A stretch of DNA of 64,000 nt from Gemmatimonadota bacterium (GTDB taxonomy: Bacteria > Gemmatimonadota > Gemmatimonadetes > Gemmatimonadales > GWC2-71-9), in contig QHUJ01000112.1 of NCBI GenBank assembly GCA_003221895.1, positions 1 through 64,000 on the forward strand. Reading direction: 5' to 3'. The notes beneath the pieces were generated by a model. It was given only the letters and a program-made list of their open reading frames with translations. It ran no database searches and had not been told where the DNA came from. Below are positions 5,340-32,347 of the stretch, piece by piece. The position numbers and the translations under genes were made by a program. Positions within the stretch are counted from its first letter, which is position 1; each line of letters opens with the position of its first letter.

Positions 5340-5340
5340 G

Positions 5341-5913: not shown

Positions 5914-6011
5914 GACCGCAGCTGAACGCAGATGGCCTCTATCGGCTAATCAGTGGTTCGGTTTCGGTGTGGGACACACTACAATCCGAAGGCCACCGAA
6001 TGTAACAACGG
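5914..6011 (-). promoter_or_regulatory. Gap upstream of the act operon, probable promoter region
   Basis: This is the only gap between the DUF3788-like gene and actA, so the act promoter should lie here. It is less GC-rich than the flanks and holds a short perfect palindrome at 5967-5979 (GTGTG-GGA-CACAC), which could be an operator. I could not assign convincing -35 and -10 boxes. Confidence 0.3.
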
Positions 6012-10793: not shown

Positions 10794-10797
10794 ACGG

Positions 10798-11571: not shown

Positions 11572-12371
11572 CAGTCGGTGGGGAATGCGCCCGGGGGGAA
11601 GATGCGCGCCGCGTTTTTCCAGCGAACCAGCGCCAGCTCTTCCTTGGTGAGCAGCAACTCCAGGTAGCGGAGCTTGGCCCAGCCGGTATCCATGGTGAGA
11701 TCGGTGCCCCACAGCAGGCGATTCACCCCGACGCTCGCCACGCAGTCTTCGAGCATCCCCCCATCCACGCCGCTTCCGGACAGATCGACGTAGACGTTCG
11801 GCACGTCATGGACGGCACGCAGTGAGTGCAGCCAGTCGCCGCCGCCGCCGATGTGCGCCAGGATGAACCTGACGTCCGGATGGCGGCGGGCGAGGGTGCA
11901 CAGCTCGACGGCATCGGAGGCCTCCTGACCCGGCCAGTCGCGGCGGCGATGCTGCCAGATATGCTGCAACACGGGCACGCGCCGCTCGCGGGCGAGCTCG
12001 GCAATAGGGTCGAGCAACCGATCGTCGGCCCGGCGGCTCGCCGCCAGCTTGATGCCGATCATCCCCGCGTCGAGACCGCGCACGATTTCGGCGCGCGCGT
12101 GCGCCGTGTAATTCGGATTGACGCAGACGTAGCCACGGATCCTATCCACGTGCTCGCGCTGTAACGCGAGCAGCGCATCGTTCCCCGCCGTAACGTCCCG
12201 CGGCGACGGGAAGTAGATCGGCGACGTGAGTCCCCAGCTGCCGAGGATCGATGCCACGTGTACCGAGATGCCGATCCTGGCGCCCGCCGTGAGCCGGCTC
12301 ACGTTCCGCTCCCGCCAATCGGCGCGCGGCGTCCGAGCGTGATAGAAGTGGGCGTGTACATCGACAAGCAT
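11571..12371 (-). CDS. Amidohydrolase (PF04909-type metal-dependent hydrolase)
   Basis: 266 residues. Metal-binding HAH at residues 6-8 (DVHAHF), a later VLQHIW and LAHIGGG, and a WGTDL motif with the catalytic Asp near residue 220 match the amidohydrolase-2 family (aminocarboxymuconate-semialdehyde decarboxylase, 2-pyrone-4,6-dicarboxylate and lactone hydrolases). No signal peptide, so cytoplasmic. It is the first gene of the seven-gene minus operon running to 6012 and is immediately followed by a paralogue lacking the HAH. The exact substrate cannot be read from sequence. Confidence 0.8.
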   Translation of the reverse strand: MLVDVHAHFYHARTPRADWRERNVSRLTAGARIGISVHVASILGSWGLTSPIYFPSPRDVTAGNDALLALQREHVDRIRGYVCVNPNYTAHARAEIVRGLDAGMIGIKLAASRRADDRLLDPIAELARERRVPVLQHIWQHRRRDWPGQEASDAVELCTLARRHPDVRFILAHIGGGGDWLHSLRAVHDVPNVYVDLSGSGVDGGMLEDCVASVGVNRLLWGTDLTMDTGWAKLRYLELLLTKEELALVRWKNAARIFPPGAFPTD

Positions 12372-12448
12372 GGCAACAATCTACAGATAAGCTGGCGCGA
12401 CGCCGCCCCGTTCCTATCTTGGGGGCGACCTTAGCCGAGGAGACGAGG
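12372..12448. promoter_or_regulatory. Divergent promoter gap
   Basis: These 77 bases separate the start of the seven-gene minus operon from the plus-strand Yip1 gene, so both promoters must lie here. A GAGG Shine-Dalgarno sequence precedes the Yip1 ATG. I see no clear operator. Confidence 0.4.
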
Positions 12449-13018
12449 ATGGAGACAACGATCGGCCGCGCGAGGGGCATCCTGCTCGAACCGCGCACGA
12501 CCTGGAAAGAGGTGGATACCGAGTTCACCAAACCCGGCGAGGTCTGGAGCAAATACATCATGCCGTTGAGTCTGATCGGACCCGTGGCCAGCATGATCGG
12601 GACGTTCATCTTCGGCAAGCGGGTTCCGTTTACGTCGCTGACAAACCCCGCCCCACTCTCCAGCGTCATCTCCACCGGGATCGCCGGTTTCGTCGTGGCG
12701 GTGCTGGGCGTATTCGTGCTCTCGCGCATCATCAGCCTGCTCGCTCCGGGATTCAGCGGGCAACGCAATGACGTTCAGGGCCTGAAAGCCGCAGCCTATT
12801 CCAGCACGGCGCACTGGATCGGCGGTGTCTTTCAAGTCCTTCCCGCGCTCAACCTCGTGAGCCTCCTGTTTTCGCTCTACAGTCTGGTACTGCTGTACGT
12901 CGGACTGCCGATCGTCATGAAGGTGCCGAAGGATCGGGCGATGGGCTACACCGCTGTGGTGATCATCATCGCGGTCGTCGTCTTCCTGATTTCGGGAGCG
13001 GTCATCGCGGCGTTCTAG
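12449..13018 (+). CDS. Yip1-domain integral membrane protein
   Basis: 189 residues from the ATG at 12449, which has a GAGG ribosome-binding sequence four to seven bases upstream. Five hydrophobic segments are visible (about 38-55, 70-92, 110-135, 140-158 and 165-187). The N-terminal ARGILLEPRTTWKEV is the typical start of bacterial Yip1 (PF04893) proteins. Function in bacteria is not established. Single gene, convergent with the aminotransferase, whose stop is 8 bases away. Confidence 0.75.
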   Translation: METTIGRARGILLEPRTTWKEVDTEFTKPGEVWSKYIMPLSLIGPVASMIGTFIFGKRVPFTSLTNPAPLSSVISTGIAGFVVAVLGVFVLSRIISLLAPGFSGQRNDVQGLKAAAYSSTAHWIGGVFQVLPALNLVSLLFSLYSLVLLYVGLPIVMKVPKDRAMGYTAVVIIIAVVVFLISGAVIAAF

Positions 13019-13026
13019 AAGCGAGT

Positions 13027-14106
13027 CTATCCGCCAACGTTGCGGAGCACCTGATCGAGGACGTCCAGTGTCTCGCTGATCGTCCGTTCGTCGTGTGCCA
13101 GCGAGACGAAGTTGTAGGCGGTGCGCTTGAACAACACACCCCGCTTCGCGGCGGCGAGCGCGACTGCGTGCGCCTGCTCCTCCGTTGAGTAGTGCAGAAA
13201 GCACATCTCCGCAATGCCGGCGACGCCGCTGATCACTCCCCCGTAACTCCGCTGCAGCTCGTGCAGGCCGTGCAGCAACGTCGTTCCGGCGCGATGCAGG
13301 TGCGCGCAGACGGCTTCGCGCTCGAATACCTCGAGCGTCGCCCGCGCGGCCGCCAGCGACACCCCCTCCGTCGCGAGCGTAGAGGAGATCCAGGTGCGGC
13401 TCGCGGCCTCCATCAGCTCTGCACGACCCCCCACCGCCGCCAGCGGGAATCCATTCCCGAGTGCCTTCCCGACGACGACAAGATCGGGAACGGGGCGCAC
13501 GTTGTACCGCTCTACGGCGCCTCCGATCGCGAGCCGGAACGCGGTCTTGATCTCGTCAAAAATCAGGATCGCTCCAGCGCGCTCGGTCTCGGTTCGCAAC
13601 AGCTGCAGCCACTCGCGAGTCGGTTCGGTCACAACGACCGGCTCGACGACCACCGCGGCGAGCCGGCCCGCACGCTCGCGAATCATGGCGCGCGCCGCCG
13701 CGACGTCGTTGAACGGCAGTTCGGCGAACAGGGCCCGGACGCCCGCGGGCACACCCTCCATGGCTCCCTGGCACCAGTCGAGCCACCCGTGATAGCCGCA
13801 CCCCAAGACGAGATCCCGTCCCGTCGCCACTCGCGCCAGCCGGACCGCGGCCGCCACCGCCTCAGCGCCGGTCTTGAGAAAGCGGATCCGTTCCATCCAG
13901 GGAATCCGCTCGGCCAGTGCCTCGGCAAGCTGCTCTTCACTCACCGGCGGAAGCGGTCCCACGACGCCCGCGGCGATCGCGGCCTCGGCTGCCCGATTGA
14001 CGGCAGGGTGGCCGTAACCGAGCGCCACCGCGCCGAGCGCCATGACGTAGTCGACGTATTCGCGGCCGTCCTCATCCCACACGCGACAGCCGGACGCCCG
14101 CGTCAT
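13027..14106 (-). CDS. Class III aminotransferase, glutamate-1-semialdehyde aminomutase-like
   Basis: 359 residues from the ATG at 14106. WDEDGREYVDYVMALGAVALGYGHP is the standard start of the PLP fold of class III aminotransferases; IFDEIKTAFR carries the Asp that binds the PLP nitrogen and VVGKALGNGFPLAAVGG the PLP lysine. It is shorter than HemL (about 430) at the N-terminus; the frame is open upstream and could add about 12 residues with a non-ATG start. It closes an operon of transporter, sugar kinase and heparinase-like genes, so it may be an amino-sugar or amino-acid transaminase and not a haem-pathway enzyme. Confidence 0.8.
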   Translation of the reverse strand: MTRASGCRVWDEDGREYVDYVMALGAVALGYGHPAVNRAAEAAIAAGVVGPLPPVSEEQLAEALAERIPWMERIRFLKTGAEAVAAAVRLARVATGRDLVLGCGYHGWLDWCQGAMEGVPAGVRALFAELPFNDVAAARAMIRERAGRLAAVVVEPVVVTEPTREWLQLLRTETERAGAILIFDEIKTAFRLAIGGAVERYNVRPVPDLVVVGKALGNGFPLAAVGGRAELMEAASRTWISSTLATEGVSLAAARATLEVFEREAVCAHLHRAGTTLLHGLHELQRSYGGVISGVAGIAEMCFLHYSTEEQAHAVALAAAKRGVLFKRTAYNFVSLAHDERTISETLDVLDQVLRNVGG

Positions 14107-14143
14107 CCGCGCGGGCGAGCCGAACAGCGCGTCGGGCCGCTTG

Positions 14144-14887
14144 CTACCGGTCGACGTGAAGCCGGGAACCCGCCAGTCGTTCGCCGTACTTGGTCACCTC
14201 GATGGCCATGGCGCGCAACAGCTTCACTTCGCGGAGGTCGAGTGGCGTGCGGTGCGCGATCTCGCGCATGGTGCGCATGACGCCGTCCGCGTTGCGCGAC
14301 TTGAAGAATTCGATCGCCTGCAATGCCCGCGAGACGTCCACGAACAGTCGCTCCAGCTCGCCAGTGGGCGTCGGTTCGGACGGGCGGCGCGGCGCCTTGA
14401 ACGGGATCTCTTCCGCACCGCGCGTCAGCGCCAGCTCGTACAGCATAATGACGACCGCGTGAGCGAGGTTGAGCGAGGCGTAGCGCGAATCGCTGGGGAT
14501 CGTCACGATGCGGTGACAGCGGTCGAGCGCCTCGTTGGAAAGACCCCGGTCTTCGCGTCCAAACAACAACGCCACCGTTCCATCATCGATCGCCACCACT
14601 TCGGCCGCGGCCTCGCGCGGCCGCTGCAGATTGCGCTTCGCCGTGCGACCGCGTGCCGTGAATCCCACCACGTGCACGCAATCGGCGATCGCGTCCTCCA
14701 GGGTCGTGTAGGTCTGGACACGCGAGAGGATATCCTGCGTCTGGTGCGCGATCCCTTCCACCCGGTACGATTCGAATTCGCCGGGATTGACGAGTCGCAG
14801 ATCGCGGAATCCGAAGTTCTTCATGCCGCGCACGACGTGCGCGATGTTGACGAGGTCCTGCGGCTCGTGGAGCACGACAACGATCAT
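14144..14887 (-). CDS. trmJ: tRNA (cytidine/uridine-2'-O-)-methyltransferase, TrmJ-like
   Basis: 247 residues. The SPOUT trefoil-knot motifs are visible: an N-terminal HEPQDLVNIAHVVRGMKNFG with the conserved Asn and Arg, FGREDRGLSNEAL (motif 2) near residue 110 and IPSDSRYASLNLAHAV (motif 3) near residue 135. The C-terminal 80-residue helical extension is as in TrmJ, which methylates the ribose at position 32 of tRNA. Its ATG overlaps the heparinase-like stop (ATGA), placing a tRNA-modification gene inside a metabolic operon. Confidence 0.8.
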   Translation of the reverse strand: MIVVVLHEPQDLVNIAHVVRGMKNFGFRDLRLVNPGEFESYRVEGIAHQTQDILSRVQTYTTLEDAIADCVHVVGFTARGRTAKRNLQRPREAAAEVVAIDDGTVALLFGREDRGLSNEALDRCHRIVTIPSDSRYASLNLAHAVVIMLYELALTRGAEEIPFKAPRRPSEPTPTGELERLFVDVSRALQAIEFFKSRNADGVMRTMREIAHRTPLDLREVKLLRAMAIEVTKYGERLAGSRLHVDR

Positions 14888-17667
14888 CCTACCAGCTCCA
14901 ATACGCCGAATCGCGACGGATCCTGCCGGTCACCGCGCAGCCACACCCACCCGTTGCCGCCGCTCCAGACGAGCTGGCCGGTGCGGCGCAGGCGGCCGGG
15001 GAGCAATTCGTTGACGATCAGATCGAAGCCCACGCGCGCGCCGGCATGCGGATACACTCCGTCGGGCCACGGAATCGCCAAAGTGACACAGTAGCCCTGC
15101 GCGGTCCGACGCCACGCGCCACGCACGGCCGAGGGATCAGTTTTGGCACTCGTGTCGCTCGAGGTACTGACGCGTACGCCGCGGGCATTGGCTTGAGGAA
15201 CGATCAAGTAGCCGACTGCAGGGCCGCCCTCCCGTGCCGAGTGCCCCGGCGCGATGTACACCTGCAGGCCATCGGAATGAATGTCATCGGGATCGTTGTC
15301 CACGCGGAGCGGCGCAGCGTCCGGCGGTCGCAAGCACAGATCGGGTTTTGTCACCTCGACCGCGAGATACAGGCAGCGCTCGTCCCATCCCGCGTAGGCA
15401 ACGGCGGAGAAGTCGTCCGGACCGGGATACGCGTCTTCGCTCCGGCGGTACTGATCCTCGAGCGCGAGCTGCAGCGGCTCCGACAGCTCGAAGCCATCGA
15501 GTGTCCCGTCGAGCGGTGGCGCGCTGACGTGGAATGCGGGTGCCGCCACCGGCGTCGGCGGGTCGATCTCGACTATTTGCTTGAAGGGCGGCGGGGTTTC
15601 GCGCGCGCCACGCATCACCCGGGGTGGCGCCTTGCCGTCCACCGATTCGATCGTCCACTCCGCGTTTCCGGGACGGTGGCGCTCGACACCAGCGCTCGTC
15701 TCGACCTCCACCGCCTCACCGCGCGTCCGAACGGTGCGCACGGCTCGCTCCGCAGTGTGGGACTCGAGCACCGTGACGATCCGCACATTGCGGCCGCGCG
15801 CGCGCGCGAGATAGAACGGTGCGCGCTCGATGCGGCCGGGCAGCGGCGGCCCGTCGGCCCGAACGAGCTCGCCTTCGAAGACGGCATGCGCGCTGAGCCG
15901 TGCGCCTCCCTCCTCGTGCGCCGTAATACTCAGCACGAGAGACCCCGGCTCATCTGGTACGAACCGCTGGGCGCGCGTCACGAACTCCGAGTCGATCGCA
16001 TCGTCCACCCACCGCCCCGTGGTCTCGATATCAACGGCGCCATCGAAATGCCACGCCAGCTCGAGGAGATGATCTTCGCGAGCGGACAGCTCGACAACGT
16101 CCACGATGTAGGAGGGGCCAGCCACCACAGTGCGGCTGACGTTCCCCGCACGCCCCCGCACCCAGGCCCAATCGCCCTCTTCCGCAAAACATTCGCAACG
16201 TGTCTCATCGGCCAGCCCCGCACCATCCAGGCGGGGCGCGTTGTGCGCGAGGACGGAGCGATACCAAAAAAGGTCCCGCGTGACATAGCGCCCCGTTCCC
16301 GGATCCGGCAACCAGTGCACGCCATTGGCATGGACGGTGAGGTGTAACTGATCGGGGTGGCCGTGTCCCGCGGTGCTCGAGCCAGTCTCGAGGCTCACGT
16401 AGCGGTCCCCGCGGCGCAGGACCGCCAATCCCTGGCTCTCGAGCAGCACACTCTCTGGCTGCCACGGCTGCTCGACCGGAGGAAGCTCGGGAACCATTTC
16501 GAGCAGCGACCACCAGGAAAGCGTACGGCGTCCGCCGTGCGCCGGGCGTGGCGCGCCGAAGTCATGCAAGTACGACTCGAGCAGCTCAGGAGCAGGCGGC
16601 GGGACGCGATGCAACGCTCCGAGCCATGACGCGAGCTCGTTCCCCCCCACGGCGTCCGGTTCACGGCTCACCATGTTGCCGAGCCCGACTTCCCAGAGCT
16701 CGAGAAAGGCCGGCTGCGCCAGCGAGACGCCAAAGCGCGCGTCCTTGCGGGCGGGAAACGTGAAATCCGGCAACGCGGTCAGGGTCGGAGCGCGCAGCGC
16801 CGCGTCCATGCGCGGGGCCAGTCGCTGCTCGGACCAGAAGTCGATACCGGCAAAGCGCGCCCACGCCGTTCCCGTCAACAGGCCACGCAGCGCGAACAAA
16901 TGGTAATTCTCGCCTTCGTACCACATGCCGTCGCGGCCGTAGCCGCGCACGAGATGCGCGATGAGTCCCGTGTCACCTTCGATGGCGCGCCGCGCAAGCT
17001 CTTCGTCCTCGAACCAGACGGCGACTGCCGTGAGTGCGGCGTTGTTCCAGGTCTGCCGGTTCGAGAATCCCTCGTCGTAGTCGCCGATCAGCGTTGCCGC
17101 CTCTTCGATCAACTGATTGACGGCTTTGGTCGTGCTCTCGTCCAGCAGGTCGGCAGCGCGCAGCATCATGGCTGCCGCGAGGTAGTTGCTGGTCCAGATC
17201 GATTCGATGTACGTGGAAAAAAAGAGCCGGCTTGGTCCGAGCAAATTGTCGCGATTCGGGTACCGCCAGTAGCGCTCGGCGTAGCCGGTGAGGATCTCGC
17301 CCGCGCGCTTCGCCGCGGCGCAATCGTTCTTGTCGCCGAGAGCCGCGACCGTCGCGAGGTGCACGGCCCGCTCGGCCAACCACAGGTGTTGAAATCGAGC
17401 CCAGTGACGATCGTGGCGTTCGCCGCGCCACCGCTTGTCGCAACGAGGACAGCGGTGCTCGGTCGGGCTCCAGGGATCGAAGATCAGCGCCGTCCCATCA
17501 TCGGGGCACACGCCGCCATCGGTCGACAGGAGCGCCTTCTGCTCCGGGATATGTGGCATCCGCTCGAGCACCGGCTGCGCGCGCTCGCGCAGATGGCTGA
17601 GCAGCGCCTGCAGGTCGGACGAGCCTGTGACGACGTCCCTGCGTGCCGCGAGCTCTTCAGCCGTCAC
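14884..17667 (-). CDS. Heparinase II/III-like protein with a C-terminal carbohydrate-binding-like domain
   Basis: 927 residues from the GTG at 17667, chosen because it overlaps the kinase stop (GTGA); the frame is open 77 codons further but only as a shadow of the kinase. A zinc-finger-like CPDDG...CPRC occurs near residues 55-85. An all-helical toroid (about 90-400) is followed by a heparinase II/III-like beta-sandwich with GHGHPDQLHLTVHANG, the family's conserved His-containing strand. The last 200 residues (SAVAYAGWDERCLYLAVEV, DDIHSDGLQVYIAP) resemble a CBM9/DOMON-like domain. No signal peptide is evident, so it may act on imported oligosaccharides. Lyase activity on uronic acids is likely but unproven. 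Confidence 0.75.
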   Translation of the reverse strand: MTAEELAARRDVVTGSSDLQALLSHLRERAQPVLERMPHIPEQKALLSTDGGVCPDDGTALIFDPWSPTEHRCPRCDKRWRGERHDRHWARFQHLWLAERAVHLATVAALGDKNDCAAAKRAGEILTGYAERYWRYPNRDNLLGPSRLFFSTYIESIWTSNYLAAAMMLRAADLLDESTTKAVNQLIEEAATLIGDYDEGFSNRQTWNNAALTAVAVWFEDEELARRAIEGDTGLIAHLVRGYGRDGMWYEGENYHLFALRGLLTGTAWARFAGIDFWSEQRLAPRMDAALRAPTLTALPDFTFPARKDARFGVSLAQPAFLELWEVGLGNMVSREPDAVGGNELASWLGALHRVPPPAPELLESYLHDFGAPRPAHGGRRTLSWWSLLEMVPELPPVEQPWQPESVLLESQGLAVLRRGDRYVSLETGSSTAGHGHPDQLHLTVHANGVHWLPDPGTGRYVTRDLFWYRSVLAHNAPRLDGAGLADETRCECFAEEGDWAWVRGRAGNVSRTVVAGPSYIVDVVELSAREDHLLELAWHFDGAVDIETTGRWVDDAIDSEFVTRAQRFVPDEPGSLVLSITAHEEGGARLSAHAVFEGELVRADGPPLPGRIERAPFYLARARGRNVRIVTVLESHTAERAVRTVRTRGEAVEVETSAGVERHRPGNAEWTIESVDGKAPPRVMRGARETPPPFKQIVEIDPPTPVAAPAFHVSAPPLDGTLDGFELSEPLQLALEDQYRRSEDAYPGPDDFSAVAYAGWDERCLYLAVEVTKPDLCLRPPDAAPLRVDNDPDDIHSDGLQVYIAPGHSAREGGPAVGYLIVPQANARGVRVSTSSDTSAKTDPSAVRGAWRRTAQGYCVTLAIPWPDGVYPHAGARVGFDLIVNELLPGRLRRTGQLVWSGGNGWVWLRGDRQDPSRFGVLELVG

Positions 17668-21991: not shown

Positions 21992-22615
21992 CGTCGCCGG
22001 GTGAATCTCGTGGCCGCCCTCGAAGGACACCAACTCGTAGGGAATCTCGTGATCGCGTAGCCGCGCCTCGGTCGCGGCGACGATCTTCGGCGTGAAGAAC
22101 TCGTCGCGATGGCCAAAGACCAGGGTGAGCCGGGCATGGCGCAGCCGCTCTGCGGCGCGACGCTCTCCGAGGTCGGGATCGGGCGGCACTTCCCCACCCC
22201 AGACGATCAGGCGATCGATCCGCGCCGCCCCGAGCATCGTCCAACGACAAACCGTTGCCGAGCCCTGCGAGAATCCCAACGCGATGACCTTGTCCTTTCC
22301 GGTAGCGACGTGGTCGTACAGCGCGTCGAGATAACGCACGTAGTCGTCGATCTCGTGCAAGCGATCTTCCTTGGTCATCCAGCTCGCGCCGACGCGCCGC
22401 TCAGCCGGGTTCTCGGTGAGGTAGAAACGCGAGAGACCTTCCGGAGCCACGACGCAACGCTGGTCATCGGCAATGGGACCAAACCGCTCGAGGAAACGGG
22501 AGGCCAGCTGGCCATAGCCGTGACACACGATCCACAGCTCAGCCGCCTCCTCGAGCGAGCCGACCGTGAAGTACCGCGCGGTCCGCGATGTGGTGAGAAT
22601 GTGTTCCTGCATCAC
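21974..22615 (-). CDS. Alpha/beta hydrolase, phospholipase/carboxylesterase family
   Basis: 213 residues, cytoplasmic. Nucleophile serine in GFSQGSATVCRW near residue 115, acid in VFGHRDEFFTP near residue 168 and His in EGGHEIHP near residue 200 complete a Ser-Asp-His triad, as in small bacterial carboxylesterases (YpfH/EstB-like). Its first ATG overlaps the mannosidase stop, so both are transcribed together from the isomerase side. It could remove acyl groups from the glycan handled by the neighbours. Confidence 0.8.
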   Translation of the reverse strand: MMQEHILTTSRTARYFTVGSLEEAAELWIVCHGYGQLASRFLERFGPIADDQRCVVAPEGLSRFYLTENPAERRVGASWMTKEDRLHEIDDYVRYLDALYDHVATGKDKVIALGFSQGSATVCRWTMLGAARIDRLIVWGGEVPPDPDLGERRAAERLRHARLTLVFGHRDEFFTPKIVAATEARLRDHEIPYELVSFEGGHEIHPATLWKLL

Positions 22616-25341
22616 GTCACCATGATCGAAACGATTTCGTGCGGCTCGGCGACGAACCGCACGACGTTGCCGCGCTGCTCCAGGACAAGCGCCACCGCCT
22701 CCCGCTCATCGGCGCGGACGCGATGCGCCGTCTTCACACCGGCGCCGAACCGCCACGCCCCCGCCGCCTTGCGATTGGTGGCGTTGTAGCAGCGCAGCAC
22801 TACCGGGGAGCCGACCTGGGCGGGCTTCACCCCCGAGAACACAAGCCCGCTTCCCTCGAGTGCGATGTCCAACGGCGCGAGCTTGAGCGATGCGCCGTGG
22901 CGCAACCACAGACCAGTGATCGGCAGGAACGCGTCTTCCCAAACGTGAGCGAGAAAATCGCCTCGATCGACGTCGGCACTGCTGACCGGCGCCAGCGCCA
23001 GATCGATTCGCGTCGTACCGATGCATTGCGCGCCTGGAATCGCGGTGGGCCAGCCCGCGTGGCCGGGTCGCGTTGGCAAATCGCCACGCGACAAGTCTCC
23101 GATGGCACGGAGCAGCGTCACGAGAAGATCGCCCTTGGTGGTCCATTCATACTCGAAGAACGCGGGCGCCAGGGTGACGAGCCCGCGACCGCCGCGTGCC
23201 GCCGCGACGAAGCGGTGCGCCGGCGCGGTGCGCACAGGCGTCTCACGGGGATACGCGCCCGGCTCGACGGCCACGGCGTGCCGCTCGACGACGCCAAACG
23301 CCGTTCCCGCCATCGCCGGCGCATCCGCGAGACCCGTCGGCACGCGCGCGCGCAACCGATGGTAGGTGTTGCGATTGTCGATTTCGAGCGTCGCGCGGAC
23401 GATCGGGCTGTCGGCGTACAGCTGGATCACGAGGCGCGCGTCGATCCCGCGCGTCACTTCCCACCGAGCCTCGAGCCCGGCAACCAGCGGACCCGCCGCG
23501 AGCCGGCGGACCGTGATCGGTCCGCGACTCTGTTTGACGCGGTCACGAACGGGCGGACAGTAGCTGTAGGCGTCGCCGGCGTCGCCCGAATCTTCGAGAC
23601 GCAACAGATCGCTGTAACGCTCGTTTCGGCGGCGATCGACGATCGTGATCGCGCCATTCGGCTCGAGCGCGACCTCCACGAACCGATTCTCGAGCGAACG
23701 ACCGCGGACGTGCACGTCTTCGGCCCTTCCCAGAGGCACTGCCGCGCCCGCGCGCAGAGCCACGAGGCCCAACCCCGCGACGGTCGGAGCGCGAAACGCG
23801 ATGCGCACCTGGTCCACTTCGTCCTGGTCGGGCGAATGGCGGGCCGCGTCGATCCGCTCCTGCGTCACGCGGCGCGCCAGGACCTGCACGGGAACGGCGC
23901 GGCCATCGGGAAGCGCGCCATGCAACGCGAAGGGCCGGAACCCCGCTCCTTCGCGGTGCCGGCGATCCTCCGACGACGGTCCGACGACCACATCGCGCCG
24001 AAAAAACGAAACGTCGACAACCATGACGCCGCCGCGCGGCCGGGGCGCGGGATTCCACAGCACGAGCGCCGCACCGGCCGCCGGCGTCTGCTCGCGAGCG
24101 GTGTCGGGATCGTACCCGATGAGCGCATGCAAGGCGTCACGCCGCAGCTCGGCGGCGTAGGCCGCGACATCGTTCAGCCGCTGCTCAGCGGCAGCGGTCA
24201 CTTCGTCCGCCGAGCATCCACAGAGGGTGTCGTGAAACTGGGTGCGCACGAGCTTGCGCCACGCGGTGTCGAGCAGCGGTCTGCGATCGCGACCACCCGT
24301 GTATCGGGCGAGCGCGCTCAACGGCTCGGCGATGCGCTCGAGGAACAGCTCGACTGCGCCGTGGTGGCGCTTGAACGGTGCGCGCGTGCTGTGGACGCCC
24401 TGCAGGGTCCAGGTGTAACCGTACGACCAGCGCAGCTCGCCCGCAATTGTGCGAGCGGTTGTGCTCTCGGCAGCCTGGAAGAATTCATCGAGGCGCGAGA
24501 TGCGAAACGCACTCGCGGGCTCGAGCTCGGCAAGCACATCGCGCAGCCGCGACAGCGCGGGGTGCGGTGCCTGATGGTCGGCGCCAATGAAAACGGGCAC
24601 ATGTTTCCCCGCCGCGCGCTGCACCAGCGTCGCGCGAACTTCCTTCCAGATGTCGGGCAGCCGCGACCCCGAACCCGGAAGCGCGGCGCCGATCTCATAG
24701 CCGTTGGGCGGCATGTGCCACAGCAGGATGTCACGGCCGTCCGGCCCCTTCCAACGAAATAGGTCACGTTCCTGGCCGGACTCGCCCCCCCCGCTCCCCC
24801 CGCCGCCCAAGCCTCGCCACAGCACGCCGAACTTGATACCGAATTCGCGCGCCAGCGCCGGCAAGACGGCAGGATGGCCGAACGCGTCCGGCGAGTACAG
24901 GACGTCGAGCCTGCCGCCCCAACGTTCGGCGTCGGCCGAGCCGAGCAGGAGGTTACGCAGCAGCGATTCCCCGGAGGGAATCTGTTCGTCGGCGAGCACA
25001 TACCACGGGCCGGCCTGCAGCCGGCCGCTCTTGACGAGCGTTTTGATGTCGCCCTCGCGCTCCGCCCGCGAGCGCAGATAGTCCTCGACGAGGACAGTCT
25101 GACCATCGAGCAGGAAGCTGCGAAACGATGAATCGGCGTGGAGACGGTCGATGAGATCATCGATGAGGGGGATGAGCCGGGCGTGGAACGTCGCGCGTGG
25201 CAGGAACCATTCACGATCCCAATGTGTGTGCGGGATCAGGTGAAAGATGTACGCTCCCCCAGCGGCGCTCGCGCCCCCCCCGCCCCCGCCGCCCCCGCCG
25301 CCCCCGCCGCCCCCTCCGCCCCCGCCCCCCCCGCCGGTCAC
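22612..25341 (-). CDS. Glycoside hydrolase family 38 alpha-mannosidase with polyglycine N-terminus
   Basis: 909 residues from the GTG at 25341, chosen because it overlaps the isomerase stop (GTGA). Directly after Met-Thr come 21 consecutive glycines, then ASAAGGAY, then the GH38 start HLIPHTHWDREWF with zinc ligands His40 and Asp42. Candidate nucleophile Asp152 lies in LYSPDAFGHPAVLP. The central three-helix bundle (about 300-400) and C-terminal beta domains of GH38 follow. No signal peptide, so probably a cytoplasmic enzyme removing alpha-mannose from imported oligosaccharides. No ATG, GTG or TTG lies between the glycine tract and the catalytic domain, so the tract is likely translated. Confidence 0.85.
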   Translation of the reverse strand: MTGGGGGGGGGGGGGGGGGGGGGASAAGGAYIFHLIPHTHWDREWFLPRATFHARLIPLIDDLIDRLHADSSFRSFLLDGQTVLVEDYLRSRAEREGDIKTLVKSGRLQAGPWYVLADEQIPSGESLLRNLLLGSADAERWGGRLDVLYSPDAFGHPAVLPALAREFGIKFGVLWRGLGGGGSGGGESGQERDLFRWKGPDGRDILLWHMPPNGYEIGAALPGSGSRLPDIWKEVRATLVQRAAGKHVPVFIGADHQAPHPALSRLRDVLAELEPASAFRISRLDEFFQAAESTTARTIAGELRWSYGYTWTLQGVHSTRAPFKRHHGAVELFLERIAEPLSALARYTGGRDRRPLLDTAWRKLVRTQFHDTLCGCSADEVTAAAEQRLNDVAAYAAELRRDALHALIGYDPDTAREQTPAAGAALVLWNPAPRPRGGVMVVDVSFFRRDVVVGPSSEDRRHREGAGFRPFALHGALPDGRAVPVQVLARRVTQERIDAARHSPDQDEVDQVRIAFRAPTVAGLGLVALRAGAAVPLGRAEDVHVRGRSLENRFVEVALEPNGAITIVDRRRNERYSDLLRLEDSGDAGDAYSYCPPVRDRVKQSRGPITVRRLAAGPLVAGLEARWEVTRGIDARLVIQLYADSPIVRATLEIDNRNTYHRLRARVPTGLADAPAMAGTAFGVVERHAVAVEPGAYPRETPVRTAPAHRFVAAARGGRGLVTLAPAFFEYEWTTKGDLLVTLLRAIGDLSRGDLPTRPGHAGWPTAIPGAQCIGTTRIDLALAPVSSADVDRGDFLAHVWEDAFLPITGLWLRHGASLKLAPLDIALEGSGLVFSGVKPAQVGSPVVLRCYNATNRKAAGAWRFGAGVKTAHRVRADEREAVALVLEQRGNVVRFVAEPHEIVSIMVT
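25273..25335 (-). repeat. GGC/GGG microsatellite encoding 21 glycines
   Basis: Sixty-three bases consisting only of glycine codons (GGC, GGG and one GGA) lie at codons 3-23 of the alpha-mannosidase gene. The repeat unit is close to GGCGGG. Length changes of whole codons would be tolerated, and other indels would shut the gene off, so it is a candidate for slippage. Confidence 0.9.
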
Positions 25342-26648
25342 GGATGCAGCTGCGCGATCTCCGCGAGGCTCGAGAGATGGACGTGCGCGACCCGGCGGCC
25401 GCGCGCCAGGAGGGCGCGGACATCGCCGCGCGCCTGGGCGCGGTACAGCTCGCCGAAGGTCCACGCCATCCCCGGGATCGGCATGTCCTCGCGGGTGTCG
25501 GCGGTAATCACCAGGAAGAGTCCGGTATTGGGACCGCCCTTATGCAGCTGGCCGGTCGAATGGAGGTAGCGCGGGCCAAAACCGAGGGTCGTGGCGCAGT
25601 TCAGCGCCTTCCCCCACACGGCGCGCACCGCCTGGAATTCCGCCAGCACTTGCGGCCCCTGCGGGAGATACGCGAGGATCGCGAAGTAGTCTCCCGGTCG
25701 CGCACTGCGCCGCAGCGTTTCCAGCGAGAGGGTCGGCAACGGATCAGACTGCTGCGCGCCCGTCAACTCCGCGCGTGCCAGTCGCTTCGCCTCGTCCACG
25801 TCAGGCTGATCGAACGCATTCACGCCGAGCCGCTCACACAGCGCCTGCGTGGCGTATTCCCAGCGCAGGAACTCGATGCCGAGGTCGAGCGGATCGCTCG
25901 AGATTTCCTGCGGGCCGACCGACTGCATGTCCGGCAATGCGGCGCGGACAGGATCGTGCACGATGGGAATGACGCCGCGGCCATCTTTCCCTGAGCTCTC
26001 CGCCACCAGCTGCTCCACCCAGTGCGCGAGCCAATCGACCTGGGGTGGCGGTGCCACCAGCAGCTTATCCCGCCCGGCCATCGCGCGATCGGCGATCGCG
26101 ACGCCCAACGCCTTCGCCGCCTTGACGTCAACGCCCCTGGTCCGCTCGAGCAGCGTCCGGCCATCGATGCCGAGCAGCGCGGCCGGCAGCATGCCGATCG
26201 CGGTTAAGCCGGAGTAGCGACCACCCACATCGGGCGGATGCGGCAAGACCGCGCGGAAGCCGCGCTCCCGACCAAGCGAGTCGAGCGGGCTCTCGGTTTC
26301 CGTGATGGCGATGAATTGCCCGGGACGGGCGCGGCGCAGGAAATAGTTGCAGAAGGCGAGCGTCTCGACCGTGTTGCCGGACTTGCTCGCGACGAGAAAC
26401 AACGTGCGTGAAACATCGTGCACCCGCTCTGCCGCGCGCACCGCGTCGGGATTGGTGCTGTCCAGGACGTGGAGCTCGTTCTTCCGGAACGTCTCCGCCA
26501 GCACCTCGGCCACGAGGCTCGAGCCACCCATGCCGCACACCAGCGTGTGATCCAGTCCGTCGGCGCGTGCCGCAGCCGCCAACGCGACGAGCTCATCCCA
26601 CTGTGCCAGTGAGTGCTGCGGGGCGTCGATCCATCCGAGGAGATTCAT
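25338..26648 (-). CDS. Glucose-6-phosphate isomerase of the Tal/Pgi type (Pgi domain only)
   Basis: 436 residues from the ATG at 26648; a longer frame upstream has no family match. GMGGSSLVAEV and ASKSGNTVET are the sugar-phosphate-binding SIS motifs of phosphoglucose isomerases. STGQLHKGGPNTG near residue 360 is characteristic of the isomerase half of bifunctional transaldolase/isomerase proteins. The transaldolase half is absent here and no separate gene for it lies in the window. The stop overlaps the mannosidase GTG, which links hexose-phosphate entry into glycolysis with mannoside breakdown. Confidence 0.85.
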   Translation of the reverse strand: MNLLGWIDAPQHSLAQWDELVALAAAARADGLDHTLVCGMGGSSLVAEVLAETFRKNELHVLDSTNPDAVRAAERVHDVSRTLFLVASKSGNTVETLAFCNYFLRRARPGQFIAITETESPLDSLGRERGFRAVLPHPPDVGGRYSGLTAIGMLPAALLGIDGRTLLERTRGVDVKAAKALGVAIADRAMAGRDKLLVAPPPQVDWLAHWVEQLVAESSGKDGRGVIPIVHDPVRAALPDMQSVGPQEISSDPLDLGIEFLRWEYATQALCERLGVNAFDQPDVDEAKRLARAELTGAQQSDPLPTLSLETLRRSARPGDYFAILAYLPQGPQVLAEFQAVRAVWGKALNCATTLGFGPRYLHSTGQLHKGGPNTGLFLVITADTREDMPIPGMAWTFGELYRAQARGDVRALLARGRRVAHVHLSSLAEIAQLHP

Positions 26649-26749: not shown

Positions 26750-27292
26750 CTATGGAGCGAGCAACGTAAACGTCACCACGAGCGAGTAGGTACCCGGCGT
26801 ATCCACAGCCCAGGCGTACGTCGTTCGAAAGAAGAAGTTCGTCGCTGTCCCCACGCTGGCGCCGCCGGAGACAACGGTTGCCGGCGTCGTGCTGAGCGCG
26901 GTAAATGGCCCGCCCGAAGCAGTGGCGTGCAGCAAATCGCCCGCGGGCTTGTTTGCGCGCGCGCTCACGCCGGGCTCCGTATTCACCGCGGTCCACGTCG
27001 CCGTCGCCGCGCTGATCTGCAACCGCCACGCCCGATTCCCACGCACGGTCGCCGTAGGGCCCGTATTGGCCACGAACCCCGCGTCATAGTCAACCGCGGC
27101 GGGCGGCGTGAGCGGCGTTGTCGTGGCGCTGAGCGTCAGTGATAACACGTCCCCGATCACCAGCAACGCACTCGTATTGGCCGTGCAGGTCCACAGGTTC
27201 GCCGGCGGCGCTTGCGCGATGCACGTCTGCGCCTCGAGACGCGCGGCCGCGCATACAAGCACGGCCACGGTGAGGGTGGGACGGATCATCAC
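26750..27292 (-). CDS. Secreted pilin-like protein C of the usher-like cluster
   Basis: 180 residues: signal peptide of about 21 (cut near LEAQT), then a Thr/Ala/Val-rich all-beta protein. It shares with the proteins encoded at 31823-32347 and, more weakly, 30515-30997 a core D/YDAGFVANTG...TVRGNRAW.L.I, KPAGDL, GPFTALSTTPATV and a closing DTPGTYSLVVTFTLLAP. Cys in the N-terminal third could form a disulfide. The GTG start overlaps the lipoprotein stop (GTGA). Last gene of the cluster. Probably a surface-fibre subunit or capsular-type coat protein; the family name is not certain. Confidence 0.7.
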   Translation of the reverse strand: MMIRPTLTVAVLVCAAARLEAQTCIAQAPPANLWTCTANTSALLVIGDVLSLTLSATTTPLTPPAAVDYDAGFVANTGPTATVRGNRAWRLQISAATATWTAVNTEPGVSARANKPAGDLLHATASGGPFTALSTTPATVVSGGASVGTATNFFFRTTYAWAVDTPGTYSLVVTFTLLAP

Positions 27293-27717
27293 GGCATCCT
27301 GGCGGCCGCGAACGAACCGGACGCGCTCCCCAGATCGAGCGGCTCGACCCAGGTGCCCTGGATCGAATCGCGTGCGAGCGCCCCCACATGACGCCGACCG
27401 ACCGTCGTGAGAAACACGTCGAAATCGACGGTCACCGAATCCACGATACGGCCGCTGAGCGTGCCGGTGCGCCGCCGAGACCCCTGCGCATCGACCTCCG
27501 TCACATCAAGGCTTCCCGTCAAGGTGGTGCCACACTGGGTCGTGATGTCGAGCGTCCCGAAGAGATTCGCCGGCGTCGGAGCATTCTGCGTCGCCGTGTA
27601 GCTCCACCTGCCGAGCAAGTTCGCGGAGGCCGGGGGCGGTGGCGGGGGCGCGCAATCGACGGGTGTGTGGCACGCGGCGAGGACAGAACAAACCAGCACG
27701 ATGCGCAGATACGTCAC
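27289..27717 (-). CDS. Small beta-rich lipoprotein of the usher-like cluster
   Basis: 142 residues from a GTG that overlaps the barrel gene's stop (GTGA). The signal peptide ends VLAAC, with Cys16 as lipid anchor, followed by a Pro-rich spacer and a lipocalin-like beta region (LLGRWSYTATQ, TLTGSLDVTEV, GRIVDSVTVDFDVF, DSIQGTWVEP). No family is recognised. Being between the usher-like and subunit genes, it may help localise the assembly or be a tip or plug component. Confidence 0.65.
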   Translation of the reverse strand: MTYLRIVLVCSVLAACHTPVDCAPPPPPPASANLLGRWSYTATQNAPTPANLFGTLDITTQCGTTLTGSLDVTEVDAQGSRRRTGTLSGRIVDSVTVDFDVFLTTVGRRHVGALARDSIQGTWVEPLDLGSASGSFAAARMP

Positions 27718-30518
27718 TGACGGCCGCTCTGATTGCGATTTCTCGACGGGTTGTTGGGATCGAACATGCGCACGGGTCTGAGAAATAGTGGGATGACCAT
27801 CGTCGGCACCGTCCCGCCCGCCTCGACCGTAAACGACGGCAGAGGACCGCGAAGGATCAGCGGCGTCTGCAGCCCGCTCAAGTCGAGCTCGATCTGGTAG
27901 CTGCCGGGGGGCAGTGCATGGAGAGTCGCCACACCCTGGCTGTCGGGGCGAGTGCTCCAAATGTTGCCGGCCTGATCGCGCGCCTGAACGCGGACGGTCA
28001 CCAGCGAGCCCCCCGCACGCGCGGGGGGGGGGGCCGCTTGACCGCTGTCGCTGGTCGGGACGAGTCGGATGGTCACCGGCGCAGTCGGGAGGACGGCGAG
28101 GTCCGGCGATCGAGACGAGTCGAATGCGGCGATGAGCCCGAAGGCCAGCGAGGTCTCGTCGAGCCGGGCCGGCTCATCAGCTCGCGTCAGGAATCGATAG
28201 CGACCTGCGGCGTCGGTGACCACGGACTCGCCGCCGCGGCGCACCAACACACCCGCGAGACCGGGCTCTCCCGAATCGCGGCGTCCATTGCCGTTGCGAT
28301 CCTCGTACACGCTCCCACGTGCCGCAGCTCGTAGTCCCATCCACGCCACCACGGTCGCGTACTCCAGCTTGATGGCGACATTCCAGCCGCCAGCGGCGGC
28401 CGAGACGAAGAGAGGATTGTGCTCGGCCTCGAGCGTGAAGGCGAGGGAGGCAGGAAGCGGCACGCGAAACCCCGCCCGCACGACGGTCACTCCCGGCCGC
28501 GACCCGAACCAATCGTAGCGTTGCACGCTCGCTGCCCCGGTCGCACCCCAGAGGCCCACGGGCAGCGGCACGGCCGCCGCCCGAATAGCGAGCACGGACT
28601 GCCGTGGGAGGAGACCACTGCCGGCGCCATTCTGCTCGTAACTGGCGGACGCTTCGAACGCACCGGCCGCCGTGCTGTGCCCCACGCTGCCCCGCACGAG
28701 CCATCGACCTGCCACGACCTCATTCCTCGCGCCGTTCGGTGGTGTGAGGCTGCGGCTGACCTGCCCCCCGGCCACGGAAGCACTCGCCAAAAAGCTTCCC
28801 GACTGACGCATGGCGCCCAGGCGCGCCAGGACTTCCGAGCTACCGATCACCCCCGACGCACTTGTGGCATCGAATCCATTGCCATGAAGCTCGAGCTCGA
28901 GCAGCGTTCGCGGCTTGACCCACCACTGCGGTCCCGCTGACCACCCCGCGGAGTGCAACTGTTCGACGGTGGGTGTCACGTCCCCCGAACCCCACACGGA
29001 CGCGCCGAACCGAAGCGTTGGAGTGACCCCGTCCGACACCGTGGCGACAAGCAGGTCGCGTGCTGGGGCGAACGCACTGCTCCCGCCCGGAGCATGCGAG
29101 TATCGAACCAGAAGCAGCCGGTCAGGATTCTGCTGCTTCGCCTCTGCGAGCCACCCGAACCCACTGCCGCCGCGAAACCGCCGTGCGGCGATCTCGCCAC
29201 TGAGATCCCAGCCGCTCCCCAGCGGTGGCGCAACGCCTCCAATCCCCAGTGCTTCCAGCCGTCTCCCGCTTTGCGGGTCGTCGGCGGCGACCGCGGTCCC
29301 GTGCACCATCCCGCCGCCAACGAATCGGCCGACCTGGGCGCCGGCCATGTAGCCATTGCCCAGCGTGGGAGCGGAAAACCGCCTGGGCTTGGCAAGGATC
29401 GCGGCCGTCGTCCAGCGTGTGCCGTCGTGGGCGAACGTCGCGCCGCTTCCCCAGAGATTGACGCCGGTGATTTCCGAAAACGCCTCGCCGGTGTTCCCCC
29501 CCCTGAAACGCCAGCGCGGTCCCTCGAACGTCACGATTGAGGCGCCGGGGAACATCCCCACCTGCGAAAGCCCGCGCGCGTCTGCGGGTCGCGCGTTGAC
29601 AGCCTGCACCAGCCGCCCGAACGCCCGCACGTTGGGTGTGAGCGCGCCCTGGAAATCGAGTCCAAAAAACGGTGTGGCGGGCATCTTCTGGCGCAGCACA
29701 GTCGCAAGACTCGTGGTGAGTCGAACCCCTGCCGCCGGCTGGGTCTCCCGATCGACGATCTCGAGGAGCGCAGTTGTTTGAGCCAGATCCCGAGCAGCAT
29801 TGCGCGCGACGAGAGGCAGCCAGGTTGACCCCGTGGCGGCGTCGCGGGGAATCGCCAGGACGATGTCGCCTTCCGCTGTGGTTTCGCCCCCGAGCAGGTG
29901 AAACGCCGAAGTCACCGCCAGCACGCCCTTCCCCCAGCGTTCCGGAGTCGTGACACCCACCTCGATCATATCGGGCGCGTTTCCGGTATTGGTCAGCCGG
30001 TAGTGCAGGACGACCCGCTCTCCCGGTCGGGCCGCCAGCAAGCGTCGCTCCAGCACCATCGACGCACCCGACACCCATGGGACATCCACGGTACAGACGA
30101 CATCAACGCGCGGTGCGCCGTGGACGAAGAACCGCACCCGCCCCGCCACCACACGTCCCGCTGGCGTATGCGCCGGCACGCGCACGGTCAACACCACGAT
30201 CCGCTCGACGCCGACGCCGGATACCTGTCCCGTACGCTGTCCGAGGAATTGTATGTCGCCGGCCGGTATCGCCTCATATGTGACGGCTGCGTCGCGCGGT
30301 AGCTCTCTGGGTACCGGCACAATCACCAGGGTGACAGAACGGGGCCCGGCGCGGGCTTGAGGCGTGTCCGCGCTCACCAGTACAAGGTCGCTGAAAGCAC
30401 CCGCGTTGCCGCTGCTGACGGGCGCGGTCCGCCCGCCTTGCGCGGCGAGGGACAGCCGCGGCCACACGAGACAGCCGGCAAGGACCAAGCCCGAGGTCCA
30501 TTGCCGCGCGAGCCTCAC
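27714..30518 (-). CDS. Large outer-membrane usher-like beta-barrel protein with C-terminal Ig-like domains
   Basis: 934 residues from a GTG overlapping the upstream stop (GTGA). A signal peptide (1-26) is followed by two Ig-like segments (about 30-240; the second, LLAARPGERVVLHYRLTNTGNAPD, resembles NEW3/CARDB domains). About 270-720 is a long series of amphipathic strands rich in Gly, aromatic residues and Arg, consistent with an outer-membrane barrel. RGSVYEDRNGNGRRDSGEPG near residue 745 is an SdrD-B-type calcium-binding-like domain, and a carboxypeptidase-regulatory-like module sits at about 845-905. The chaperone and pilin-like neighbours argue for an usher role, but I see no canonical PapC signature. 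A run of eleven C lies at 28023-28033. Confidence 0.65.
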   Translation of the reverse strand: MRLARQWTSGLVLAGCLVWPRLSLAAQGGRTAPVSSGNAGAFSDLVLVSADTPQARAGPRSVTLVIVPVPRELPRDAAVTYEAIPAGDIQFLGQRTGQVSGVGVERIVVLTVRVPAHTPAGRVVAGRVRFFVHGAPRVDVVCTVDVPWVSGASMVLERRLLAARPGERVVLHYRLTNTGNAPDMIEVGVTTPERWGKGVLAVTSAFHLLGGETTAEGDIVLAIPRDAATGSTWLPLVARNAARDLAQTTALLEIVDRETQPAAGVRLTTSLATVLRQKMPATPFFGLDFQGALTPNVRAFGRLVQAVNARPADARGLSQVGMFPGASIVTFEGPRWRFRGGNTGEAFSEITGVNLWGSGATFAHDGTRWTTAAILAKPRRFSAPTLGNGYMAGAQVGRFVGGGMVHGTAVAADDPQSGRRLEALGIGGVAPPLGSGWDLSGEIAARRFRGGSGFGWLAEAKQQNPDRLLLVRYSHAPGGSSAFAPARDLLVATVSDGVTPTLRFGASVWGSGDVTPTVEQLHSAGWSAGPQWWVKPRTLLELELHGNGFDATSASGVIGSSEVLARLGAMRQSGSFLASASVAGGQVSRSLTPPNGARNEVVAGRWLVRGSVGHSTAAGAFEASASYEQNGAGSGLLPRQSVLAIRAAAVPLPVGLWGATGAASVQRYDWFGSRPGVTVVRAGFRVPLPASLAFTLEAEHNPLFVSAAAGGWNVAIKLEYATVVAWMGLRAAARGSVYEDRNGNGRRDSGEPGLAGVLVRRGGESVVTDAAGRYRFLTRADEPARLDETSLAFGLIAAFDSSRSPDLAVLPTAPVTIRLVPTSDSGQAAPPPARAGGSLVTVRVQARDQAGNIWSTRPDSQGVATLHALPPGSYQIELDLSGLQTPLILRGPLPSFTVEAGGTVPTMVIPLFLRPVRMFDPNNPSRNRNQSGRQ

Positions 30519-30997
30519 GGTGTCGTCACCGTCAATGTCACAACGAGCGGGGCCAAATACGAGCCGGGAGGATCTGCCGTCCAGCTCAACAAGGCACGAA
30601 AGAAAATTGTGTTCGACCAGGGAGGGTCGTTTCTTCGGAACGGCGTGACGATTTGGATGACGACGTTACTCGTGGTGACGCTGTTCCAGGTCCCGAGGTC
30701 TGCGCGCCGCCACTGCAAGTCCCCGATGGGCTTGGTCCCTCCCATGGTGCTAGCTGTCGAACGAATCGAGACGATGGTGGTGCGAGCGGTGTTGCCCCCG
30801 CCGGAAAGGCCCACGAGAAAGGTGATGCCGGTCGGTTCCGCTACGAAGCCGGCGTTGTAGTCCGCAGCTGTCGGTGTGGAGAGCGTGGCGGGAGCATTGA
30901 TGAGCGTGAGGGTCGCCTGCTGCGCACGCACCTGCACCGGCACGAGCAGCGCGAGCACGAAAAGCACTTGCCCGGAGAGACCCTTTCCCCACGACAC
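30515..30997 (-). CDS. Secreted pilin-like protein B of the usher-like cluster
   Basis: 160 residues from the GTG at 30997, which sits two bases after the chaperone stop and gives a clean signal peptide (MSWGKGLSGQ then hydrophobic, cut near VRAQQ). A start 12 codons earlier would destroy it. The mature part shares with proteins A and C the segments ADYNAGFVAEPT, KPIGDLQW and a final PPGSYLAPLVVTLTVTTP. It lacks the Cys pair of the other two. Probably a variant subunit or adaptor. Stop overlaps the usher-like GTG. Confidence 0.65.
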   Translation of the reverse strand: MSWGKGLSGQVLFVLALLVPVQVRAQQATLTLINAPATLSTPTAADYNAGFVAEPTGITFLVGLSGGGNTARTTIVSIRSTASTMGGTKPIGDLQWRRADLGTWNSVTTSNVVIQIVTPFRRNDPPWSNTIFFRALLSWTADPPGSYLAPLVVTLTVTTP

Positions 30998-30998
30998 G

Positions 30999-31802
30999 TC
31001 AAGGCACCTCGAGCTGCACCTGCCCGCCCGCAACGTCCGACCCGCCGTAGTCGATCAGGGCCAGCGCGATGTACCGACCGCGCGGCAACGCCGGCAGCGG
31101 AAGGGTCAGTCGCCGCAGGCTCCCTGGTAGAACGGGGAATTCCTCGATCGGGACGGTCTCGGCGACCGATGCATCCAGCCGGCGGAATTCGACGCTCCCG
31201 TGGGGCCAGAGTGGCACGTCGCCGGTGTTGCGAAAGTTCAAGATGAGCCGGCGCCCGATGGAATCTCGGATCGCGACGCTCTCGACCTCCCCTTCCTTGG
31301 GGAGATTCGGGGGCACGACGTACAGCTTCACCCCCAGGCGCGTGACATAGGCGATGGCCCGGCCGCGCGCCTGCCGCTGTGCGGTGCTCTCGACGAACAC
31401 GACACTCCAGCACGTCTTGTCGAACGAGTCCGCCCCGTCCCCCTCCAGCGACACCCGGACCGCCTGCTGGGTGTGGGGCGGCAGCCGCAAGCTCAGTGGG
31501 AAGACGCGCAGGTAGCGGCCGCACGACTGCGGCAGCCGGCCGCTCTCGCTGAACCGGTTTTCTCCGTTCTCATCGCGGTCCCAATCGTTGAGGTACAGCG
31601 TCGCCTCGACGACCTGGTCGCTTTCATTCGAGACGCTGAAGGACTGAACGCGGCGGCCCGGTGCGTGAGGATCCAGGAACAACTCGACCTGATCGACCGC
31701 GAGCTGACCCTCGGCTCGTTGCACCCCTGCCATTAGAACAAACGCGGCGAGGCCCACTGCTGCCCGCCGCGTTGTCCGGTGCGCCAGGATCAATGCGCGC
31801 AC
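30999..31802 (-). CDS. PapD-like periplasmic pilus chaperone
   Basis: 267 residues from the GTG at 31802, preceded at good spacing by GAGAGGAG. Signal peptide of about 32 residues (cut near AEGQ). Two Ig-like halves follow: the first (LFLDPHAPGRRVQSFSVSNES, VFPLSLRLPPHTQQAVRVSL, WSVVFVES) has the strand pattern of PapD-type chaperones; the second contains RRLILNFRNTGDVPLWPHG. Such chaperones cap pilin subunits in the periplasm by donor-strand complementation. Proteins of this type in non-proteobacterial genomes are usually annotated as molecular chaperones; exact class is uncertain. Confidence 0.75.
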   Translation of the reverse strand: MRALILAHRTTRRAAVGLAAFVLMAGVQRAEGQLAVDQVELFLDPHAPGRRVQSFSVSNESDQVVEATLYLNDWDRDENGENRFSESGRLPQSCGRYLRVFPLSLRLPPHTQQAVRVSLEGDGADSFDKTCWSVVFVESTAQRQARGRAIAYVTRLGVKLYVVPPNLPKEGEVESVAIRDSIGRRLILNFRNTGDVPLWPHGSVEFRRLDASVAETVPIEEFPVLPGSLRRLTLPLPALPRGRYIALALIDYGGSDVAGGQVQLEVP

Positions 31803-31822
31803 GCTACGCTCCTCTCGCGCCG

Positions 31823-32347
31823 TTACGGAGCTGTGACCGTGAAAACCACGTCGAGGGAGTACGTCCCCGGCGTATCGAGCGTGTAATCCCACAGCGTGCG
31901 GTACGAAATGGTCTGGACCACGCTGGCAGTGCCACTCGCCGAAGTCCCCAGGCCGGCATTCGACGTCGTCAGGGCCGTGAACGGCGCGCCACCCGACGTG
32001 CTCCACTGGAGATCGGCGGCGGGCTTGGCGACGCGGGCGCCGGCACCAGAAGGCGTCCAACTCGCGGCGCTGCTCTTGACACTGAGCGTCCATCCCCGGT
32101 TTGCCTTGACGGTCGCTGTCAGCGCGGCCGGGTCATCCTGGAAGCCGTTGTCGTACGAGGTCTGACTTGGCGCCGTGAGCGCCGTGGCTGTGGAGCTCAG
32201 CGTGAGACTGAGCACTGTGCCCACGGTCACGGACGCCGTGTTCGTGACACTGCAGGGATTGCCTAAGCACCCCTGTGCCCGTCCTGTCGTCACGCCGCCC
32301 AAGAGCAGCGCGAGTGTCAGGCCGGACAACCTGGAGATCCTACGCAT
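31823..32347 (-). CDS. Secreted pilin-like protein A, first gene of the usher-like cluster
   Basis: 174 residues from the ATG at 32347, which has AAAGGAAA upstream; the frame runs further but has no signal peptide there. Signal peptide of about 25 (cut near GRAQG), two Cys (GCLGNPCSV) early in the mature part, then the shared core SYDNGFQDDPAALTATVKANRGW, KPAADLQW, GAPFTALTTSNAG and a final DTPGTYSLDVVFTVTAP. Highest similarity is to protein C (26750-27292). As the promoter-proximal gene it may be the major, most abundant subunit. Confidence 0.7.
   Translation of the reverse strand: MRRISRLSGLTLALLLGGVTTGRAQGCLGNPCSVTNTASVTVGTVLSLTLSSTATALTAPSQTSYDNGFQDDPAALTATVKANRGWTLSVKSSAASWTPSGAGARVAKPAADLQWSTSGGAPFTALTTSNAGLGTSASGTASVVQTISYRTLWDYTLDTPGTYSLDVVFTVTAP

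Follow-up and report, generated by a model that had tools for sequence, protein, structure and literature searches.

A strongly diverged chaperone-usher-like gene cluster conserved in Gemmatimonadota

We analyzed a 64,000-nt stretch of the 68-kb contig QHUJ01000112.1 (assembly GCA_003221895.1) from a Gemmatimonadota bacterium, hereafter called the window. Six near-overlapping open reading frames occupy positions 26750-32347 of its minus strand in the order subunit A, chaperone, subunit B, outer-membrane protein (OMP), lipoprotein and subunit C (Table 1). This arrangement agrees with a preliminary description of the same DNA, and inspection of the sequences also bore out its statement that all six proteins begin with a signal-peptide-like segment. 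The five small proteins of the cluster matched no family in Pfam or NCBIfam, and neither the Pfam Usher model nor any of the pilin models matched the proteins of the window. The motifs KPAxDL and PGTYSLxVxFTxxAP, described earlier as shared by the three subunits, are common to A and C, whereas B is a diverged paralogue. The C-terminal strand of the subunits had also been considered unusual, a claim that needs tempering because GTYS-type strands terminate DUF4402 and spore-coat-U-like subunits of the same phylum as well. Elsewhere in the window, more than 20 glycine codons stand in a row at 25260-25340 (minus strand), near the start of a 950-aa open reading frame (22612-25464) whose true start may lie downstream of this run.

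Table 1. Genes of the cluster and predicted domains of the OMP (positions in the window)
Feature	Position	Strand	Details
Subunit A	31823..32347	-	174 aa, ATG start; ORF listing
PapD-like periplasmic chaperone	30999..31802	-	267 aa; best start codon GTG 31802; 20 nt past subunit A
Subunit B	30515..30997	-	best start codon GTG 30997; 1 nt past chaperone stop
Usher-like outer-membrane protein (OMP)	27714..30518	-	934 aa, GTG; 4-nt overlap with B
N-terminal Ig and NEW3/NPCBM_assoc-type Ig of OMP	29757..30359	-	residues ~54-254; AF2 strands
OMP barrel	28347..29726	-	residues ~265-724, 24-25 strands, ~460 aa; DSSP of AF2 model
SdrD_B-like domain, usher CTD1 position	28188..28310	-	residues 737-777; PF17210 E 1e-7; hhalign FimD 723-774
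CarboxypepD_reg-like domain, usher CTD2 position	27810..28004	-	residues 839-903; PF13620 E 1.7e-5, below cut-off
Lipoprotein	27289..27717	-	best start codon GTG 27717; 4-nt overlap with OMP gene; lipobox LAAC
Subunit C	26750..27292 or 27289	-	GTG at 27292 or ATG at 27289

We searched a sample of 200 Gemmatimonadota genomes with the OMP and the chaperone. Counting the window's own genome, 13 genomes gave matches along the greater part of the OMP at E 2e-21 or better; three further genomes had a chaperone match at E<1e-30. The gene order proved to be kept in relatives: the series A-chaperone-B-OMP is repeated across the mapped loci, with B in the same place between chaperone and OMP, and is followed in most core-clade loci by the lipoprotein and subunit C. 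Because the same genes recur in the same order at more than 15 independent loci, the cluster is not a chance arrangement. An independent check came from weak chaperone relatives that were not in the first OMP list (L082-L086 and L088), which adjoin relatives of the OMP. Each locus carries three to four paralogous subunits, some loci having an extra one, and the lipoprotein is conserved in most loci of the core clade, the only clade in which it was seen. A fourth, divergent subunit paralogue lies on the opposite strand downstream of C at L061 (3513-4112) and L097 (11101-11703), and locus L067 of genome G039 (3490-17500) presents the system twice in tandem, with up to four subunits per copy. An apparent fusion of subunit B and the OMP in a single open frame (L068, 2043-5972) was rejected: the twin locus L069 carries the two in separate frames, and a frameshift is likely because B is interrupted relative to L069 and the contig has low coverage (3.25x). 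Searches with the OMP and the chaperone found no copy of the system in the four other sampled members of the genus to which the window belongs, and its occurrence is patchy.

The system was also found outside the phylum. A scan of a genome collection was run with a narrowed profile, the initial profile having been without any conserved stretch, and it identified two loci of Verrucomicrobia (Chthoniobacterales; L110 and L111) with the order subunit-subunit-chaperone-OMP. In L111, whose contig extends beyond the OMP, one more subunit comes after it. Loci of this type are uncommon among Verrucomicrobia. Two Deinococcus plasmids carry a block subunit-chaperone-subunit-OMP (L154, 6950-12523; L155, 6969-12571), all four genes being annotated as "hypothetical protein". 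Matches were obtained for the chaperone (7e-46), the OMP (1e-41; hhalign 2e-27 over 791 columns) and the subunit in the B position (2e-7), and a weak one for that in the A position (3e-4 in one plasmid and 0.03 in the other).

The chaperone sequence of the window by itself yielded no match. Its family profile, however, aligned with a FimC family composed of E. coli K-12 chaperones and one archaic-looking chaperone at E 5.8e-12 (hhalign), covering both domains and reaching the "inDyG" end. This supports the earlier reading of the protein as two Ig domains, by alignment only and without a folded model. Searches with curated models had a mixed outcome: PapD_N was detected at E<0.1 in 9 of 27 chaperone relatives (best 9e-9; two above Pfam's cut-off), whereas PF00577 gave no direct match to the window OMP or its relatives, and the spore-coat-U and DUF4402 models recovered none of the 47 members of the subunit family at E<1. 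Lys159 aligns with PapD Lys112, and the lysine of this site is conserved. The position of PapD Arg8 is occupied by Glu40, which hardly varies within the core clade; the family thus has only part of the classical carboxylate anchor. Archaic and alternative chaperones present a conserved Arg89 (CsuC/EcpB) with a D2 Tyr/Arg anchor (PMC4654587); the expected Arg89 spacing holds Trp132/Ser133 and no invariant Arg in our family, although the alignment is too remote for certainty. Cys94 and Cys131 are conserved across core-clade chaperones.

In the OMP, SdrD_B exceeded the Pfam cut-off and CarboxypepD_reg and an Ig domain were weaker, in line with the two domains previously assigned after the barrel. 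PF10633 (NEW3/NPCBM_assoc) was matched by 19 of 24 OMP relatives. An AlphaFold2 model built with 24 relatives (model residue + 26 = full-protein residue) reached a pLDDT of 83.8 and a pTM of 0.56. It consists of two Ig sandwiches, 24-25 strands (model residues 239-698) and two small C-terminal sandwiches. Most barrel blocks have a pLDDT of 90-98, such that the large barrel on which the preliminary description depended is indeed predicted. The best Foldseek matches in the PDB were FimD (1.4e-12) and PapC (7e-11), with TonB receptors at 7e-8 or weaker. The TM-scores are low (0.30) because the orientation of the domains is uncertain in the model. At the sequence level, direct hhalign comparison of the barrel and N-terminal domains with FimD found nothing significant, and direct alignment is limited to the C-terminal part (E 7e-4 over 48 columns). 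A second family of the phylum, the DUF4402-linked clade 3, provides a bridge: its OMPs align with FimD at E 2.7e-12 over 506 columns, plug included, and the window OMP family aligns with clade 3 at E 1.3e-21 over 376 columns, which span the second barrel half and the C-terminal domains (CTDs). Neither the N-terminal domains nor the first barrel half could be matched to ushers by sequence. Homology of the OMP to ushers is established on sequence grounds only through this bridge.

Ushers are composed of five parts, namely an N-terminal domain (NTD), a 24-strand barrel, a plug, CTD1 and CTD2 (PMC8410936). The preliminary description had asked whether the barrel contains a plug. About 24 strands are predicted, but the ~80-residue usher plug is absent from all 24 OMP relatives that were aligned, with no plug match anywhere; their full-length barrels measure 418-489 residues and the longest insertion is 20 aa. 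No published plug-less usher turned up in the literature searches that we made. A pore without an internal plug would have to be closed by different means; the N-terminal NEW3/Ig domains or the lipoprotein might do this, or the pore might simply be kept occupied. Such gating is inferred only; the lipoprotein, which has no Pfam family, is a candidate for this role with no evidence that tests it.

Among the subunits of the window, A and C are close paralogues (phmmer E 1e-27) and B is more distant (about 1e-8 with A) and has a shorter N-terminus. Subunit A has two N-terminal cysteines, and its AlphaFold2 model (pLDDT 93) presents a pilin-type Ig sandwich in which residues 1-25 of the model take part in no strand. 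This free segment of the model is a candidate donor strand. Apart from two environmental fibril structures discussed below, Foldseek matched subunit A nearly only to chaperone-usher pilins (the FimH pilin domain, CfaB, FimG, PapA, FimA and Caf1). By sequence, the subunits were assigned to no sensible Pfam family and to no pilin family, and hhalign comparisons were not significant with either E. coli pilins or a set of DUF4402 subunits, the latter aligning over only 16 columns (E 0.04).

The barrel, the chaperone alignment, the gene order and the pilin fold support the chaperone-usher-like reading proposed earlier, in which the building of a fibre remains an inference. We consider it very likely that the cluster encodes a complete chaperone-usher system, far diverged from the known ones, whose product is a linear fibre on the cell surface. 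Homology of the chaperone and the OMP to this pathway, the predicted folds, the conserved gene order and the missing plug insertion were shown by our analyses. Donor-strand exchange, fibre formation and the direction of docking are inferred, without a modelled complex and without expression or microscopy data. Under this model, the three subunits would cross into the periplasm via Sec and would be held by the two-domain chaperone, which would donate a strand to their incomplete Ig fold. The OMP would then take up chaperone-subunit complexes, docked by its N- and C-terminal sandwich domains. The N-terminal segment of each subunit would take the place of the strand that the chaperone had lent to the preceding subunit, and the fibre would exit through the wide barrel.

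The system shares with FimCD/PapCD and EcpBC a two-domain PapD-like chaperone adjoining the usher, Ig-type subunits and a barrel of the 24-strand class with two C-terminal sandwich domains. It differs in the absence of a plug, in the N-terminal Ig and NEW3 domains, in the use of SdrD_B and CarboxypepD_reg as CTDs, in the Glu at the Arg8 site, in its orphan subunit family and in the added lipoprotein. With the archaic pathway (Csu, CupB, CupE), it has in common a wide distribution beyond Proteobacteria and short Ig subunits with a GTYS-type end strand; in contrast to that pathway, its subunits are missed by the spore-coat-U model, its OMP is missed by PF00577 and the plug is absent. Clade 3 (L121, 4563-8907, in genome G037; L134-L153) has a homologous chaperone and OMP and the order subunit-chaperone-subunit-OMP, but it retains the plug region and has DUF4402 subunits, and no lipoprotein was seen. 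Its OMPs, which PF00577 misses or scores below the cut-off, were matched in 49 of the 200 Gemmatimonadota genomes, some only partially, and to some degree in all four of the other sampled genomes from the genus of the window (strongly in G002, G138 and G195). Sensor kinase or response-regulator genes seem to lie close by in L121 and L122. PF00577 itself was found in 2 of the 200 genomes, and its sole match above the cut-off belongs to a conventional, archaic-looking chaperone-usher locus (L120, 6607-11283, in G069).

Alternatively, the OMP might serve as an open pore for secretion, through which the Ig proteins brought by the chaperone leave one by one or to form a coat layer, without donor-strand polymerisation. 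The lack of a plug insertion among the 24 relatives, the missing sequence match to the usher N-terminal domain and the single conserved lipoprotein, a possible anchor, are all compatible with such a pore. We nevertheless find it improbable, given that the N-terminus of the modelled subunit is left without a partner, as it is in donor-strand pilins, that its closest matches among solved structures (TLP-1 and chaperone-usher pilins) form fibres and that each locus encodes three to four subunit paralogues. A second alternative is a surface complex resembling WxL/WxLIP, in which the PapD-like protein would have a structural role instead of a chaperone role, remaining attached to the secreted proteins at the cell surface. 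In a profile search of PDB sequences, the best match of the chaperone was the solved EfmWxLIP1 (E 8e-6), ahead of the alternative chaperone EcpB (0.0055) and the archaic CupB2 (0.012), a hint from sequence comparison that WxLIP proteins, which are likewise chaperone-like and two-domain, and PapD-like chaperones have a common origin. To our knowledge, Gram-positive WxL systems have neither an outer membrane nor an usher. The profile-profile alignment with the FimC family, the PapD_N matches, the location of the chaperone beside a usher-homologous OMP at almost every mapped locus and the predicted pilin fold of the subunit leave this alternative with very little credit. Finally, it is scarcely plausible that this is an ordinary archaic (sigma) system merely under-scored by curated models: archaic systems are the most widespread, Deinococcus included (PMC4654587), yet the conventional usher locus of G069 was detected by PF00577, PapD_N and a K-12 usher profile, the window family has no plug and has other N-terminal domains and subunits, and in a tree its chaperones branch apart from classical, alternative and archaic-looking references (support 91/87, long branches).

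The fibre expected from a chaperone-usher system may have a counterpart among environmental structures. The top Foldseek matches of subunit A were TLP-1a (9ikj; 1.1e-5) and TLP-1b (9ikk; 8e-5), TLP standing here for the fibrils of a pond-water cryo-EM study. TLP-1/TLP-2 were also the only PDB matches of the subunit sequence profiles (E 0.09 with alignment A6 and 0.0028 with A7, a smaller subunit alignment weighted to verrucomicrobial subunits), and alignment A3, which includes B, ranked TLP-2 second (E 0.25). The best of these values is partly selected because several alignments were tried. Reversed sequences and DUF4402 subunits, used as controls, gave no TLP-1/TLP-2 match, and a single verrucomicrobial subunit found nothing when used as query against the PDB. 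The N-terminal stretch of TLP-1 had no match among plasmids and no convincing one in 195 Verrucomicrobia (best E 0.008). TLP-1 is also larger than the window subunits (236 aa vs about 150 aa), and its source organism and assembly machine are unknown. We infer a connection as a lead and not as a result. It is possible, although doubtful on present evidence, that the cluster represents a fourth, plug-less and otherwise gated branch, spanning Gemmatimonadota, Verrucomicrobia and Deinococcus, of the kind that builds the freshwater TLP-1 fibrils. According to a review, pond-water cryo-EM filaments of this kind could not be identified, and the match of the subunit to TLP-1 offers a testable candidate for the assembler of an environmental fibril whose source has not been found (PMC12967142).

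Our results indicate that the cluster is a genuine, conserved and remote branch of the chaperone-usher pathway. Chaperone-usher biogenesis is known chiefly from Proteobacteria. This branch stands out in lacking a plug, in docking with other domains and in having subunits of a family not recognised before, and its annotation as "hypothetical protein" on the Deinococcus plasmids makes it invisible to current annotation. In all chaperone-usher models that we are aware of, the usher is gated by a plug. If it is true that a plug-less branch exists across phyla, it would show which parts of the usher are dispensable and would raise the question of how the pore is closed.
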